Assembly (NCBI GenBank): GCA_016201275.1
Contig: JACQDB010000105.1
Coordinates: 1-34,588 of the forward strand
DNA: 34,588 bases
Reading direction: 5' to 3'
Source of the DNA: Acidobacteriota bacterium
Lineage (GTDB): Bacteria; Acidobacteriota; Blastocatellia; UBA7656
The notes beneath the pieces were generated by a model. That model was not told the origin of the DNA and searched no databases. It worked only from the letters and a program-made list of their open reading frames with translations. A program made the translations under genes and the position numbers. This document shows positions 23,633 to 34,588 of the stretch, piece by piece. Positions within the stretch are counted from its first letter, which is position 1. Each line of letters begins with the position of its first letter.

Positions 23633-26600
23633 ATGGATATTCGTTTTTCACCAAGAGCCGCAAGCAGTATGGTTTTACTCTTCATCCTGCTTTTATCCAG
23701 CAGCGCGTACCACGCCCAGCGCACCGGCAAATCATCGTCTGCCTCGACCAAATCACAGAAGAAGTCCGGTAAAAATAGCGCTGATAAACCGTTGCCGCCG
23801 CCGCCGCAAAAACCCGCGCCACCAAAGCAAAAACCCGCGCCGCGTATGGAAAAACCGGAACTCGTTATTCAAAACGGCCACTCCGATAACATACGCTCCA
23901 TCGCTTACAGTTTCGACGGCAAACTATTTGCCTCTGGCGGCGCAGACAAAACCATACGAATCTGGGATGCCGAAAATAACCGCCTGATTCGCCTGCTGCC
24001 GGACATCTACGATGACGTTACCTCGCTCGCCTTCAGTCCGAACGCCAAGACCATCGCAGCGGGAAGCTTGGAAAAAACCGTCAAGGTGTGGGACGTAGCG
24101 ACAGGCAAATTGCTGCACTCGTTCACCGATCATGATAACGGCGTCAGTTGCGTCGCCTTCAGCGCCGACGGCAAAATCATCGCTTCCGGCAGCCTCGACC
24201 AGACCATCAATTTCTACGATGCCAACAACGGCGATTTGCTGCTCACCCTCGAAGGCAAAGCGGGCGGCATACGTTCAATCAGTTTCAGCCCCGATGGCAA
24301 ACAACTGGCCGCCGCCTGCGAAGATAAAACCGTAAAACTCTGGGACACCACCGACGGCAACTTGCTACGCACCTTTGTCGGTCACAGCGCCGACGTGCGC
24401 TCGTTGGCCTTCAGTCCCGACGGCAAGACATTGATTTCCGGCAGCGCCGATAAAACCGTCAAAGTCTGGGACGCCGCAAACGGCACAGCGCTGCACACCC
24501 TCAAAGGCCATGCGAGCGGCGTGGTCGCGGTCGCCTTCAATACCGATGGCAAAATTGTCGCCTCCGGCAGTCAAGATAAAACGCTCAAGTTATGGGACAC
24601 CGACAGCGGCAAGTTGCTTCGCACGCTTGAGAATTTCCCTCAACCGGTCAACGCCATCGCCTTCAATAACGACGGCGCGACGATTGCCGCAGCGAGTTGG
24701 AAAACCATTTTTCTCTGGGACGTAGCGACCGGCAAATGGTTAAGCAATCTGGACAGCCACTCTTTTGCCGTGCGCGAAGTGGCGCTCAACCCTGATGGAA
24801 AAATTGCCGCCTTCACCAATGCCCGCAGCGTCAAGTTGTGGAATGCTGGCGAAGGTCGCTTGCTGCACAGTCTGGACGAGCATACCTCGGAAGTCAGCGC
24901 CGTGGCTTTCAGCCCCGACGGCAAAACTCTAGCGTCCGGCAGTTGGGATAAAACCCTGAAGCTTTGGGAAACCAACAGCGGCAAAGTGCTTCGCACCTAC
25001 AAAGGTCACGACGCAGAGATTCACGCTCTTGCCTTCAGCGCCGATGGCAAGTTGCTGGCTTCGGGCAGCGAAGACCGCACCATCAGAATCTGGAACGTCA
25101 GCACAGGCAAATCGCTACGCACGCTTACCGGTCATCATAGTTTGATTACTGCCGTGGCCTTCAGCCCAGACAATAAAACTCTGGCCTCGGGCAGCGTAGA
25201 TAACAGCGTCAGGCTTTGGGAGGTCAACACCGGCAAATTTATACGCTCGCTCGATGGTCACTTCGGATTGGTCAGTTCGGTCGCCTTCAGCCCAGACGGC
25301 TACACGCTGGCATCGGCAAGCGGCGATAAAACCTTCAAGTTGTGGAATGTCGCAAGCGGCGAGTTAATCAAAACCGTCAACGCCAACTCTTTCGATCTGC
25401 TGGCCATCGCTTTCGCACCCGATGGTCGCAGTCTGGCAACCGGCGGCTTCGACAAGAGCATAAAATTATGGGACGCGGAAAGCGGCAAGATGCTTCGCAC
25501 GCTTGAAGGCCACACCAGCCCGGTTTCTTCTATAGCTTTCAGCGCCGATCAAAAAACTTTGCTGTCGGGAAGCTGGGATACGACGGCAAAAGTCTGGTCG
25601 CTTGAAACCGGGCGCTTAATCACCACTTGGCTGGCCTTCAATGATGGCAACTGGATTGCGTTTACGCCGGACGGTTATTACGACGGCTCTGAACACAGCG
25701 CTTCGTATGTCACCTGGCGCAGCGGCAATAAGGTTTATGATTTCGATCAATTGTTCGAGCGTTTTTACAAGCCAGAGATCATCCCGCAAGCGCTGCAAAA
25801 CCTCAGCCTCAAACCGGCCTATACCATCACTCAAGGCTTTGCCTCTTCGCCGGAAGTGAAGATTGTTTCGCCCTCCATGAACGCCAGTTTCAACGCGGCG
25901 GAAGCAGAAATTAAAGTCGAGGCCAAAGACACCGGCGGCGGCGTTAAGGAAGTCAAGCTCTATCAAAACGGCAAGCTCGTTGATCCGAATCTGCGCGGCC
26001 TGAAAGTCGTCAAGAGCAATGCAACGGCGAGCTTTCGCGTTTTGCTCACGGAAGGCGAAAATAATTTCAAAGCCATCGCCTACAGCAACGATTTCACCGA
26101 AAGCCGCCCGGTTGAATTGACGCTGCGGCTTGCTGCGCCTGTCAAAGAAGCGGCTTTACACCTGTTGGTAGTCGGCATCAATCAATATAAAAATTCGGCG
26201 TTGAACTTGAACTTCGCCAAGCCGGATGCCGCCAGCATCGCCGACTTTTTCGAGCAGAAAGGGAAACGCTTATTCCGCGAAGTGACCATCACTAAACTCT
26301 TCAATGAAGAAGCCAGCCGCGCCAATATCATCAAATCGTTTCAGACCCTCACGGAAAAAACCCAACCGCAAGATGTCGTCATTATCTATTTCGCCGGTCA
26401 CGGTGACAGTCGTGAAAGCCAATGGTACTTTGTGCCTTACGACATCATTCAACCGGAAAGGGATGAGGTGCTGGCGGCGCAAGGCATCTCGTCGAAAACC
26501 ATCTCAGACCTTCTGGTGAAGTTGCGTTCGCAAAAAGTTTTGTTGTTGTTGGACGCCTGCCGCTCCGGTGCAGCGGTCACCGCCTTCCGCAGTTTTGAAG

Positions 26601-26902
26601 ACCGCAAAACGCTCTCGCAATTAGCGCGTGCCACCGGCATACACATCATCGCCGCCTCTTCGCCCGATCAGGACGCAACCGAAGTGCAATCGTTAGGTCA
26701 CGGCGTTTTTACCTACTTGTTGCTGAAAGGCTTGGGCGGCGAGGCCACTATAGGAGCGGCAAAAAAGACGGTGACAGTGCGCGGCCTGCTCGCTTACATT
26801 GAAGACCAGTTGCCGGAAATCTCGCAAAAGTACAGAACGCAAGCGCAGTATCCGGTCAGTTCCTCCAAAGGCATGGACTTTCCGTTGGCTCTGCTGCAAT
26901 GA
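23633..26902 (+). CDS. Exported protein with 14 WD40 repeats and a C14 caspase domain (1089 aa)
   Basis: A signal peptide (SSMVLLFILLLSSSAYHA) is followed by a Lys/Pro-rich linker. From about residue 78 to 664 there are 14 WD40 repeats of about 42 residues, most with GH and WD-type ends, enough for two seven-bladed propellers. A link of about 60 residues and an Ig-like segment (AEIKVEAKDTGGGVKEVKLY, about 765-830) lead into a peptidase C14 domain from about 840, with the catalytic dyad H923 in YFAGHGD and C976 in LLLDACRSG. Metacaspase/orthocaspase relatives cut after Arg or Lys; the target here is unknown. An exported caspase on a double propeller suggests surface or periplasmic signalling or defence. 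AAAGGA precedes the ATG. Confidence 0.93.
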   Translation: MDIRFSPRAASSMVLLFILLLSSSAYHAQRTGKSSSASTKSQKKSGKNSADKPLPPPPQKPAPPKQKPAPRMEKPELVIQNGHSDNIRSIAYSFDGKLFASGGADKTIRIWDAENNRLIRLLPDIYDDVTSLAFSPNAKTIAAGSLEKTVKVWDVATGKLLHSFTDHDNGVSCVAFSADGKIIASGSLDQTINFYDANNGDLLLTLEGKAGGIRSISFSPDGKQLAAACEDKTVKLWDTTDGNLLRTFVGHSADVRSLAFSPDGKTLISGSADKTVKVWDAANGTALHTLKGHASGVVAVAFNTDGKIVASGSQDKTLKLWDTDSGKLLRTLENFPQPVNAIAFNNDGATIAAASWKTIFLWDVATGKWLSNLDSHSFAVREVALNPDGKIAAFTNARSVKLWNAGEGRLLHSLDEHTSEVSAVAFSPDGKTLASGSWDKTLKLWETNSGKVLRTYKGHDAEIHALAFSADGKLLASGSEDRTIRIWNVSTGKSLRTLTGHHSLITAVAFSPDNKTLASGSVDNSVRLWEVNTGKFIRSLDGHFGLVSSVAFSPDGYTLASASGDKTFKLWNVASGELIKTVNANSFDLLAIAFAPDGRSLATGGFDKSIKLWDAESGKMLRTLEGHTSPVSSIAFSADQKTLLSGSWDTTAKVWSLETGRLITTWLAFNDGNWIAFTPDGYYDGSEHSASYVTWRSGNKVYDFDQLFERFYKPEIIPQALQNLSLKPAYTITQGFASSPEVKIVSPSMNASFNAAEAEIKVEAKDTGGGVKEVKLYQNGKLVDPNLRGLKVVKSNATASFRVLLTEGENNFKAIAYSNDFTESRPVELTLRLAAPVKEAALHLLVVGINQYKNSALNLNFAKPDAASIADFFEQKGKRLFREVTITKLFNEEASRANIIKSFQTLTEKTQPQDVVIIYFAGHGDSRESQWYFVPYDIIQPERDEVLAAQGISSKTISDLLVKLRSQKVLLLLDACRSGAAVTAFRSFEDRKTLSQLARATGIHIIAASSPDQDATEVQSLGHGVFTYLLLKGLGGEATIGAAKKTVTVRGLLAYIEDQLPEISQKYRTQAQYPVSSSKGMDFPLALLQ

Positions 26903-31881: not shown

Positions 31882-32772
31882 ATGAAATCGAAACATTCGC
31901 AGGAAAAAATCTGGCATCTTGTCACCGTAACCATAGCGCCGACAGTTGAAGAAACCGTCAGCGCTATGCTCTTTGATTTGGGCGCAAACGGTTTGATTAC
32001 CCTGGAAGAAAATGAATCAAGCCTGCGACTCGGCGCGTATTTCGACCAATCAACGAAGGCCGAAACGCTTGCCAGAGAGATCGAAGGCGAATGCGGACGC
32101 GCCGGAATTTTGCCTTTCCTGTTGAGCCTAGAGCTTGCCGATATTGCCGATCAGGACTGGATGCAGAAATGGAAAGAGGGCTTCGAGCCGATCAATATAG
32201 GCGAGCGCTTGATGGTCGCGCCGTCGTGGAAATTGCCTGCCGATGCCGCCAACCGCGCCGTCATTCAAATTGATCCAGGCATGGCCTTTGGCACGGGAAC
32301 CCACGAAACCACGCGCCTGTGTTTAGAAGCGCTTGAAGCACGCTGGACAGGCGGTTCGCTGATTGACGTAGGCACAGGCACAGGCATACTGGCGATTGCC
32401 GCCGCCTTGCTTTCGACACAAGCGCGCATCGTGGCGATAGACATTGACCCGCTGGCGGTCGCCGTCGCCAGCGAAAATTGCGCCATCAATAACGTCGAGC
32501 AGCGCATAGAAGTGCGCCAAGGTCAGCCATCGGATTTTGCCGGACTGCAATTCGATATGGTCGTCGCCAATCTCACCGCCGAAGTCATCATCGCGTTGAT
32601 GGACGATTTGACACGCTGTGTAAAACCGGCGGGCTTGATGATTTTATCGGGCATACTGACCACCTTGCGCGGTGATGTGGAACGGGCAATTGAGGCGGCG
32701 GGTTTGACCATCAGCGAACGCAAAGCGGCGGGCGAATGGTCAATGCTCGTGGCGCGAAGCGAGGCAACTTGA
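31882..32772 (+). CDS. prmA: Ribosomal protein L11 methyltransferase
   Basis: Methylates lysines and the N-terminus of ribosomal protein L11 with S-adenosylmethionine. The N-terminal L11-recognition domain (about 1-90) includes DQDWMQKWKEGFEPINIGER. The class I methyltransferase domain begins at IDPGMAFGTGTHETTRLCLE, with the cofactor motif LIDVGTGTGILAIAAALL, the acidic end of strand 2 at VAIDIDPLAV and the catalytic-site motif VVANLTAEV. Its 296 residues are normal for PrmA. The start is ATG at 31882 with only a weak ribosome-binding site. It overlaps rsmE by one nucleotide, a common pairing of translation-related methyltransferases. The 225-bp upstream gap divides it from the DUF3857 gene and must hold both promoters. 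Confidence 0.96.
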   Translation: MKSKHSQEKIWHLVTVTIAPTVEETVSAMLFDLGANGLITLEENESSLRLGAYFDQSTKAETLAREIEGECGRAGILPFLLSLELADIADQDWMQKWKEGFEPINIGERLMVAPSWKLPADAANRAVIQIDPGMAFGTGTHETTRLCLEALEARWTGGSLIDVGTGTGILAIAAALLSTQARIVAIDIDPLAVAVASENCAINNVEQRIEVRQGQPSDFAGLQFDMVVANLTAEVIIALMDDLTRCVKPAGLMILSGILTTLRGDVERAIEAAGLTISERKAAGEWSMLVARSEAT

Positions 32773-33524
32773 TGCAGCGGCGCAGATTTTATGCAGCCCC
32801 GGACGAGCGCGACCAAACGCGCATCATGTTGTCGGCAGACGAATCACATCACTTGCTTCAGGTGTTGCGCTTGTCGTGCGGCGCAGAGGTTTTTGTTTTC
32901 GACGGCTGCGGCACAGAGTTCCGCTGTGAATTGATTGCCCAGGTCGGCAAACGCGCCGTCCTGGAAATCATTGAAGAGTTGACTGACGCAGTGGAATCGC
33001 CTTTGCGATTGACGCTCGCGCAAGCATTGGTGAAAGGCGAGAAATTCGATTTCATTGTGCAGAAAGCCACAGAGCTTGGCGTCCATCGTATCGTGCCGCT
33101 GGCCTGCGAACACGCCGACCTGAAATTGAACCGCGAATCGGCGGCGAAAAAAATCGAGCGCTGGCAACGCATCTCTATGGAAGCCTTGAAGCAATGCGGT
33201 CGCCGTGCGCGCGTGGCAATTGATAGCCCCTTGACGGTGGCGGAATTTCTCTGTGCCGACGAGGCAGCGGCAACAGCGGCGATGTTATTTTTCAACGAAC
33301 GCGGCGGCGCGGTGCTGCAACAGACGCTTGAGGCCTTGACTGACCAACGCACCATCAGCGTGTTAATCGGCCCCGAAGGCGGATGGAGCAACCACGAAAT
33401 TGCCTTGATGAATAACAGCGGTTGTCGAGCAGTCACCTTGGGCAAACGTATTTTGCGAACCGAGACAGCGGCGCTGGTGGCCTTGACGTTGTTGCAGCAC
33501 CGGCTTGGCGATTTGTCGCGGTGA
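32772..33524 (+). CDS. rsmE: 16S rRNA (uracil(1498)-N3)-methyltransferase
   Basis: SPOUT enzyme that methylates N3 of U1498 in 16S rRNA. The N-terminal PUA-like part starts MQRRRFYAAPDE and includes ADESHHLLQVLRLSCGAEV. The knotted domain shows QALVKGEKFDFIVQKATELG, VLIGPEGGWSNHEI and LGKRILRTETAALVAL, the three classical RsmE motifs. Its 250 residues match the family. The start ATG at 32772 shares its first base with the TGA stop of prmA, so translation is probably coupled; the in-frame ATG at 32736 lies inside prmA and is not needed. Confidence 0.96.
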   Translation: MQRRRFYAAPDERDQTRIMLSADESHHLLQVLRLSCGAEVFVFDGCGTEFRCELIAQVGKRAVLEIIEELTDAVESPLRLTLAQALVKGEKFDFIVQKATELGVHRIVPLACEHADLKLNRESAAKKIERWQRISMEALKQCGRRARVAIDSPLTVAEFLCADEAAATAAMLFFNERGGAVLQQTLEALTDQRTISVLIGPEGGWSNHEIALMNNSGCRAVTLGKRILRTETAALVALTLLQHRLGDLSR

Positions 33525-33612: not shown

Positions 33613-34227
33613 ATGACAAACCAAATTTTGCGTCAACCTCTAATCGGCGAACCTGCGCCCGATTTTTCTCTACCTGCCACCGATGGCCAACTCGTTCATC
33701 TTGGCGATTATCCCAAGCCCGTCAGCCTGACCTTTCTGCGGCATCTTGCCTGAGTGTTCTGAGCCGATTACGTGATGCAGTTGCATCACCCAAACGTGCA
33801 AAACCAATTAGCCAAACAGGAGGCGCACTTGCTGGTCGTGTCGTTTGCGCCCGTGCAGGAGTTGCAGGATTGGCTGCCATTTTTCCAAAAGTATTACGTG
33901 GAAAAATTTTTCCGCGAACAAAAGCTTGAGCAACCTACAGCCGTGTTGGCGCGCACGCGCTTTGTTGCCGACCCCGAATTACAAAGCTATCACGCTTATG
34001 GCCTGGGCCGACATTCAACCAGGCAGGCTTACGGCTGGAAAATCGTGCGCCGTTTTCTGCGGCTCCTATGGCAAGGCAAACCCTTGCGAAGACCCAACGG
34101 CGACACTTTGCAAAAGGGCGGCGATTTCGTCATCAACCGTCAAGGGCGTTTGACGCTTTCGCACATAGGCCGCGACCAGAGCGAACGCCCAACGGTCGCC
34201 GAAGTGCTTGCCGCATTGCAAAAATAA
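33613..34227 (+). CDS. SelL-like selenoprotein: AhpC/TSA_2-type redoxin with a UxxU active site (two recoded UGA)
   Basis: Reading from ATG 33613 gives 46 residues of a peroxiredoxin-like N-terminus (LIGEPAPDFSLPATDGQLVH, then PVSLTFLRHLA), then TGA at 33751-33753, Val, Phe, TGA at 33760-33762, and an open frame to TAA at 34225-34227, 204 aa in all. In this family the segment after FLRHLx is the redox motif CxxC, so both TGAs sit exactly on the two cysteines (U47-V-F-U50). The rest is intact and conserved in character: ADYVMQLHHPNVQNQLAKQE, SYHAYGLGRHSTRQAYGWKI and QKGGDFVINRQGRLTLSHIG. A hairpin fit to be a SECIS follows (33772-33789). SelL proteins of bacteria and aquatic animals have this UxxU motif and form a diselenide. 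Likely a thiol/peroxide oxidoreductase. It follows rsmE by 88 bp. Confidence 0.88.
33772..33789 (+). promoter_or_regulatory. Putative bacterial SECIS hairpin serving two UGA codons
   Basis: GTGATGC (33772-33778) and GCATCAC (33783-33789) form a perfect 7-bp stem closed by the loop AGTT, within the coding frame (V-M-Q-L-H-H). Bacterial SECIS elements lie just after the UGA, with an apical loop about 16-37 nt away and a G among the first two loop bases. Here the loop begins 16 nt after the second TGA and 25 nt after the first, with G as its second base. One hairpin in this position can serve both codons, as described for bacterial SelL genes. Confidence 0.75.
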
Positions 34228-34312: not shown

Positions 34313-34444
34313 ATGCAGGCATTTCCCGCCACAGACGTTGGCCACGAGCGTCCGCCCAAAGCCCGCCGCACCTTGGTGCCAGCACAGGCATACGTCAAAG
34401 CGCGAACGACTCAATTTGAGTTCGAGTCGTTCGCGCTCTGGTAA
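34313..34444 (+). CDS. Possible small ORF (43 codons)
   Basis: An ATG at 34313 with AAAGGA 8 nt upstream opens a 43-residue frame (MQAFPATDVGHERPPKARRT at the start, FEFESFALW at the end). Nothing is recognised in it. Its last third is encoded by an inverted repeat (34399-34437), and its stop lies 6 bp before the dispersed repeat at the window end. The good ribosome-binding site is the only positive sign; it may be chance. Confidence 0.3.
   Translation: MQAFPATDVGHERPPKARRTLVPAQAYVKARTTQFEFESFALW
34399..34437. terminator. 14-bp hairpin downstream of the selenoprotein gene
   Basis: The arms 34399-34412 and 34424-34437 are perfect reverse complements with an 11-nt loop. It is 170 bp after the selenoprotein stop. 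A short T-rich tract follows only after a gap (about 34450-34460), so a terminator role for the plus-strand gene is possible but weak. Confidence 0.5.
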
Positions 34445-34449
34445 ACGGC

Positions 34450-34588
34450 CTTACTTTTACCCATAAGTCAGAACTTCATCAACTGCGATAGTTTTTTAGC
34501 CCGCGAAGTGGGCGATAGCATATAGCCCAGTGCGTCAGCGCTGGGTAAATGCGAAACCATCTCTCGCTAGCCCGCGAAGCGGGTGATA
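34450..34588 (+). repeat. Right-end copy of the dispersed repeat (inverted relative to base 1-148)
   Basis: The blocks 34450-34465 and 34501-34530 match the reverse complement of 124-139 and 58-87 exactly, with nearly the same spacing. The boundary phrase TAGCCCGCGAAG starts at 34498 and again at 34569, so the element is at least partly tandem with a period near 70 bp. It runs off the window end. Confidence 0.8.

Follow-up and report, generated by a model that had tools for sequence, protein, structure and literature searches.

A probable two-selenocysteine, SelL-related redoxin gene with a single candidate SECIS element in an acidobacterium

We have analyzed a 34,588-nucleotide stretch of DNA (the window), which constitutes contig C7 of a 6.84-Mb Acidobacteriota genome that is 98.7% complete. 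The window contains a gene that most likely encodes a redoxin with two selenocysteine (Sec) residues in its active site and that ordinary annotation would shorten. From the sequence data, we estimate a probability of about 0.87 that this locus is a SelL-related, peroxiredoxin (Prx)-like UxxU selenoprotein gene, in which one hairpin recodes both UGA codons (UGA1 and UGA2) and the active-site pair consists of U47 and U50.

Translation of the locus (Table 1) gives a single frame of 204 codons with no stops other than the TGA codons at 33751 and 33760, as an earlier reading of the sequence alone had proposed. When TGA is read as Sec, U47 and U50 sit within the segment FLRHLAUVFU. That sequence-only reading had also predicted that automatic annotation would reduce the protein to 151 residues without the active site, and standard ORF calling at the locus does return only a 151-residue ORF, which starts at the GTG at 33772.

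Table 1. Features of the UxxU locus and its upstream neighbours, in window coordinates.
Feature	Position	Strand	Basis
Predicted UxxU Prx-like (SelL-related) selenoprotein gene, 204 aa	33613..34227, stop codon included	+	translation, family profiles, model
Predicted first Sec codon UGA, U47	33751..33753	+	TGA or Cys codon at the homologous site of relatives
Predicted second Sec codon UGA, U50	33760..33762	+	TGA or Cys codon in relatives read, except UxxP (L039) and UxxA (L066)
Candidate bacterial SECIS, 7-bp stem GTGATGC / GCATCAC, AGTT loop	33772..33789	+	model constraints, covariation
rsmE-type RNA methyltransferase, upstream neighbour	32736..33524	+	window ORF
prmA (ribosomal protein L11 methyltransferase), conserved neighbour	31882..32772	+	window ORF

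The window protein (P0001) matches the Pfam families AhpC-TSA_2 (34.3 bits) and AhpC-TSA (33.9 bits), both above threshold. Its earlier assignment to the SelL family holds in part. The protein has a UxxU motif in a thioredoxin/Prx-like fold, and the NCBIfam profile NF040769 (SelL-related redox protein) is matched at E up to 1e-5 by all 49 relatives in a set of chosen rows (A6) that does not comprise every gene; the window protein itself, however, scores 117.1 bits (E 6.2e-34) against a cut-off of 120. The subclade to which it belongs carries an insert of ~20 residues relative to the other rows. The AlphaFold model (pLDDT 95.8, pTM 0.92) places residue 47 immediately before a helix comprising residues 48–56. 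Among the best structure matches are Bcp4, with a Z-score of 18.5 for 152 aligned residues at 2.5 Å, and human prostamide/prostaglandin F synthase (PGFS; 9us9, 9usa), with a Z-score of 17.3 for 155 aligned residues at 2.4 Å, in an entry titled as a C44S/C47S mutant. Many other peroxiredoxins lie within 1–2 Z units of the best matches, which include Bcp, AhpE and Prx proteins. The likeness to PGFS, which we take to be a member of the PRXL2 family, extends to the sequence: the family profile aligns with it over positions 17–177 of 182 and shares its GCxxC. Unlike the window protein, PGFS is eukaryotic and has Cys in place of both Sec residues, and the similarity does not imply a common substrate. 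As judged from its sequence, the product is a peroxiredoxin/thioredoxin-fold protein with UxxU, which the model places where the first helix begins.

We favor U47 and U50 as a redox pair. A rather unlikely alternative is that U50 serves as the peroxidatic residue, in the manner of a 1-Cys peroxiredoxin. This arrangement would agree with the Bcp, AhpE and Prx proteins among the top structural matches, and with the alignment of the N-terminal half of the family profile with an archaeal PrxQ, in which the second Cys meets a Cys. Against it, the CxxC of the same half of the profile aligns with the CxxC of ResA, and PGFS also aligns through its CxxC. Furthermore, the first residue of the motif is the more constant one, as it is either Sec or Cys among the family members that were read, whereas the second is replaced by Pro in one relative (L039) and by Ala in another (L066). 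These UxxP and UxxA sequences hint that the first Sec may be able to work alone in some members. The canonical peroxiredoxin motif is TxxC/TxxU according to PMC13188914; the window protein lacks the Thr three residues ahead of the catalytic Cys/Sec and has U47 in its place.

A candidate SECIS hairpin starts 9 nt past the second TGA, with its loop beginning 16 nt past UGA2 and 25 nt past UGA1. The loop carries a G at its second position, and the predicted energy of the hairpin is −10.3 kcal/mol. The published bacterial SECIS model (PMC13188914, legend to Fig. 2) has a loop of 3–9 nt, a stem of 4–16 bp, a G at one of the first two positions of the loop, a spacing of 16–37 nt and a minimum free energy of at most −7.5. 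The window hairpin conforms to this model for both TGA codons, so that the single in-frame SECIS envisaged by the sequence-only reading has a candidate within the published spacing of each UGA.

Comparison of 33 UxxU genes, aligned without gaps (set A3: the window gene, six genes found by homology and 26 found by a DNA pattern scan described below), indicated that the stem covaries. The paired cells amount to 81.8% (66.1% in shuffled alignments), the double-change cells to 39 (13.0 shuffled) and the covariation score to 0.432 (0.172 shuffled); none of 500 shuffles was as high for any of these measures, although such counts are not probabilities because the sequences are related. Two measures are weaker: the pairs that show a double change number 6, a value reached in 7 of 500 shuffles, and the further pair types number 14, reached in 82 of 500. 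Sliding the pairing partner by 1–3 columns leaves 24.7–64.1% of cells paired. As an example of compensation, an A-U and a U-A pair of the window stem are G-C and C-G in L029. None of the stem columns is covered by the pattern of the scan from which 26 of these genes came. In the eight CxxC homologues (set A4, all that were read), the same columns are 58.9% paired with 0 double changes; in set A5 (22 UxxC genes; of the 26 read, L028, L045, L053 and L075 are left out), they are 48.7% paired with 15 double changes, and the register is not common to the UxxC set. The UxxP and UxxA genes belong to none of the three sets. Since relatedness weakens the shuffle counts, it is the double changes, together with the CxxC control, that carry the argument for a SECIS.

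Synonymous recoding (300 recodings per gene, with codon weights taken from the window genes and used for all species) matched the native hairpin in at most 5% of cases for 23 of 33 UxxU genes, 7 of 22 UxxC genes and none of the 8 CxxC genes. For the window gene, 3.2% of 5,000 recodings matched the hairpin, 11% gave all 7 pairs and 6.3% gave all 7 as Watson-Crick pairs; many recodings form the stem because the protein sequence itself favors it. Folding 50 nt of the window on its own gives a z-score of −1.37, with 21 of 200 dinucleotide shuffles as good, and RNAalifold predicts only 4 pairs (24–27/34–37) at −2.35 kcal/mol. One UxxU gene (L082) has no hairpin, and the loop is shifted in five others (L088, L092, L103, L104 and L106). 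Most likely, one SECIS recodes both UGA codons, as suggested by its placement and covariation. Recoding could nevertheless be unequal at UGA1 and UGA2, giving a mostly truncated product and a selenium-dependent function or regulation, with the two-Sec form as a minority. The loop lies at the lower limit of the 16–37 nt range (PMC13188914, as above) from UGA2 and at 25 nt from UGA1, as this alternative might lead one to expect. Both spacings are in range, however, and both TGA codons are retained in all six UxxU relatives found by homology; we thus assign unequal recoding a limited chance.

When the protein was used to search 396 genomes from the phylum, 18 gave matches. Of the six UxxU relatives found by homology, three belong to the same family as the window organism (G009, G508 and G509) and three lie outside it (G008, G172 and G148); both TGA codons occur at homologous positions. 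A further genome of the family (G510) has a UxxC relative, and two of the seven family genomes (G259 and G507) gave weak matches only, with best E-values of 4.8e-13 and 4.7e-15, as ordinary peroxiredoxins would give. For a broader survey, one genome per species from 84,980 species was scanned at the DNA level for F-x-R-H-[LF]-[AG]-U-x-x-U. Translation of the resulting 30 stretches identified 29 UxxU homologues and one chance match (Vibrio, L093). The homologues are mostly from Chloroflexota, with three from Acidobacteriota, one from Myxococcales, and single metagenome-assembled genomes (MAGs) labelled Akkermansiaceae and Bacillota. As the pattern demanded both TGA codons, these genes demonstrate spread rather than independent retention. 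The record titles of UxxU homologues mention groundwater, Lake Baikal and the marine station ALOHA. Besides the chance match, duplicates were removed from the UxxU counts (L079 is the gene also listed as L067, L084 that of L035 and L107 that of L031).

The genes read also include 26 with UxxC and 8 with CxxC, so that all three motif types anticipated at the TGA site are represented, and the aligned CxxC relatives place the two TGA codons at both of their Cys positions, as had been claimed. A profile search of the class matched at least 161 of 162 genomes, a figure that is not a family count, and its weaker matches resemble ordinary peroxiredoxins; only loci with an RH..U/C motif were used from it. 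Scanning close-relative contigs with P0001 gave 31 pattern matches and no relatives by tblastn, presumably because back-translation sets Cys codons at the TGA positions and because the protein is divergent.

In a tree of 63 rows, for which both active-site residues were masked, the window gene is sister to that of G009 (97/94). Both fall in a nine-row UxxU clade (100/99), whose other members are G508, G509, one MAG from Myxococcales and four from Chloroflexota. The tree leaves out L045, L053, L066, L068, L069 and L075, as well as L059 (a near copy of L057) and L101, a member of the covariation set that loses its frame ~50 codons on. The UxxU label needs three changes on this tree, a result that speaks neither for nor against a single origin of UxxU.

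The G009 protein is 59% identical to the window protein over 204 gap-free columns. Downstream of both TGA codons, the two genes differ by 0.36, 0.19 and 0.59 at codon positions 1, 2 and 3, respectively, with dN of 0.34 and a saturated dS of ~3. The excess of third- over second-position differences and the low dN relative to dS indicate purifying selection on the frame past both TGA codons. The sequence-only reading had considered chance errors at both sites unlikely, and the recurrence of both codons in G009, G508 and G509, which were found by homology and not by their TGAs, bears this out. A pseudogene or sequencing error, in which two TGC/TGT codons became TGA and the frame is dead, might be suspected from two stops in one short gene that ends ~0.36 kb from the contig end, but it is contradicted by the independent genomes within and outside the family that carry both TGAs, by the purifying selection past the stops and by the covarying hairpin, and is thus very improbable.

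The host genome encodes a complete Sec machinery; all four genes that the sequence-only reading had proposed to look for are present. The tRNA-Sec (selC) scores 66 bits against a gathering score of 47 and has the anticodon TCA (ARAGORN), and selB (364 bits), selA (539.6 bits) and selD (356.5 bits) are each above cut-off. The selD gene itself has an in-frame TGA inside SCAGUAAK, presumably the catalytic Cys/Sec site of SelD, followed by a strong hairpin. A changed genetic code, with TGA read as Trp or Cys without selenium, would leave the frame open just as well, since it is open whatever residue TGA encodes, but we give it hardly any weight: rsmE and prmA of the window both terminate in TGA, and the code is therefore not altered overall, the Sec machinery is complete, and the two TGAs fall at active-site Cys positions ahead of a SECIS-like hairpin. 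In the class Blastocatellia, selA is above cut-off in 145 of 162 genomes, and Sec use looks near-universal by this marker. A comparison of Sec machinery with motif type within the class was uninformative, as the 145 genomes include seven (group g11) with CxxC genes. The host genome also has another Prx-like selenoprotein candidate, of the UxxC type (L070; G000 C24:80400-81900), with a TGA in FYRGYWUPYC and a predicted hairpin after it; similar genes with a TGA occur in G009 (L072) and G510 (L076).

The genes upstream of the window gene, prmA and rsmE, precede the UxxU gene of G009 in the same order, with one ORF of 135 residues lying there between rsmE and the UxxU gene. Both are house-keeping genes and thus give no hint at function. 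On the 3′ side of the window gene, the contig comes to its end. Downstream, the UxxU gene of G009 is followed after ~0.13 kb by an FAD-dependent disulfide reductase of the GGDCTWTGCVPSK type (C31; L108:5694-7133). A reductase of this type, 54% identical to that of G009, also occurs at the end of a Chloroflexota MAG contig (L086), ~0.58 kb downstream of the UxxU gene. A motif scan found no GGDCTWTGCVPSK-type reductase at the remaining UxxU loci scanned, many of which are on short contigs. Five of ten genomes with UxxU genes, including that of L086, have a match to the FAD reductase at E up to 1e-80, three of them at 52–55% identity; in the window organism, the best relatives are just 30–32% identical and none is close. 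The GGDCTWTGCVPSK-type enzyme is a possible diselenide reductase, given its position at two loci.

Three further observations concern the window. An inverted repeat, GCGCGAACGACTC / GAGTCGTTCGCGC, at 34400-34436, 3′ of the selenoprotein gene, appears terminator-like by eye. A match to the Acido-Lenti-1 RNA at 34498-34545 on the minus strand (34.3 bits, E 9.7e-5) is just under the Rfam gathering threshold of 37. A protein of 1089 residues with 13 WD40 stretches is encoded at 23633-26902 on the plus strand.

We propose that SelB and Sec-tRNA-Sec would bind the single hairpin just 3′ of the UGA codons, and that UGA1 and then UGA2 would be recoded from it. The product would be a peroxiredoxin/thioredoxin-fold redoxin whose active-site pair, U47 and U50, sits where the first helix begins. 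By homology, this pair would most likely cycle between diselenol and diselenide (or selenenylsulfide) forms. The putative role would be the reduction of a peroxide or disulfide substrate, with recharging by a thioredoxin-type system. A more far-reaching proposal, that the Acidobacteriota/Chloroflexota/Myxococcota set is a true diselenide enzyme made from one SECIS serving two UGAs nine nucleotides apart, with the GGDCTWTGCVPSK-type reductase as its partner in some members, is tentative and, in our view, doubtful.

Selenoprotein L (SelL) has a UxxU spacing and one SECIS for both Sec residues; it was reportedly described by Shchedrina and colleagues in 2007 as forming a diselenide. The window protein resembles SelL in having two predicted Sec residues in its redox motif, and the same spacing and a shared SECIS are predicted here as well. 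In the literature, SelL is described as having two Sec in a redox motif (PMC2397514, PMC3473315), with a diselenide bond and a restriction to aquatic organisms, namely fish, invertebrates and marine bacteria (PMC2397514, 2008). Unlike SelL so described, the present gene is from Acidobacteriota; it is likened to SelL through the motif and the NCBIfam profile, with the diselenide only putative. The ~20-residue insert and the sub-threshold score also distinguish the window protein from the NF040769 group that its relatives match.

UxxU Prx-like selenoproteins are already known as a kind. A Prx-like thiol:disulfide oxidoreductase selenoprotein (pfam00578) with UxxC/UxxU is tabulated without an aquatic limit in PMC9312934 and PMC13188914, with WP_010940744.1 as an example and, in the table of the latter, one to two Sec residues; the window protein is similar to selenoproteins of this kind in its Prx-like Pfam domain and UxxU motif. 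Several UxxU sequences of a Prx-like family are reported from the Global Ocean Sampling set (PMC2398784), and a table in PMC1794560 already gives four selenoproteins for Acidobacteria. Within the accessible portions of the openly licensed literature, a scope that takes in few subscription journals, we came across no account of a UxxU or SelL selenoprotein from Acidobacteria. The extension of the known range that the sequence-only reading had suggested thus stands against the aquatic limit of PMC2397514, but it is a modest one, as the later reviews, in their tables, set no such limit (PMC9312934, PMC13188914). What is new is the acidobacterial range and a covarying SECIS positioned to serve two codons.

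Through this locus, the two-Sec proteins gain a well-supported candidate, one that standard ORF calling shortens, removing the active site, and UxxU redoxins are now seen in both Acidobacteriota and Chloroflexota. From the 33-gene covariation set comes a precise model by which two neighbouring UGA codons could share one bacterial SECIS. Diselenide enzymes are, to our knowledge, few, and a bacterial source outside the sea would therefore help in asking how cells reduce a diselenide.
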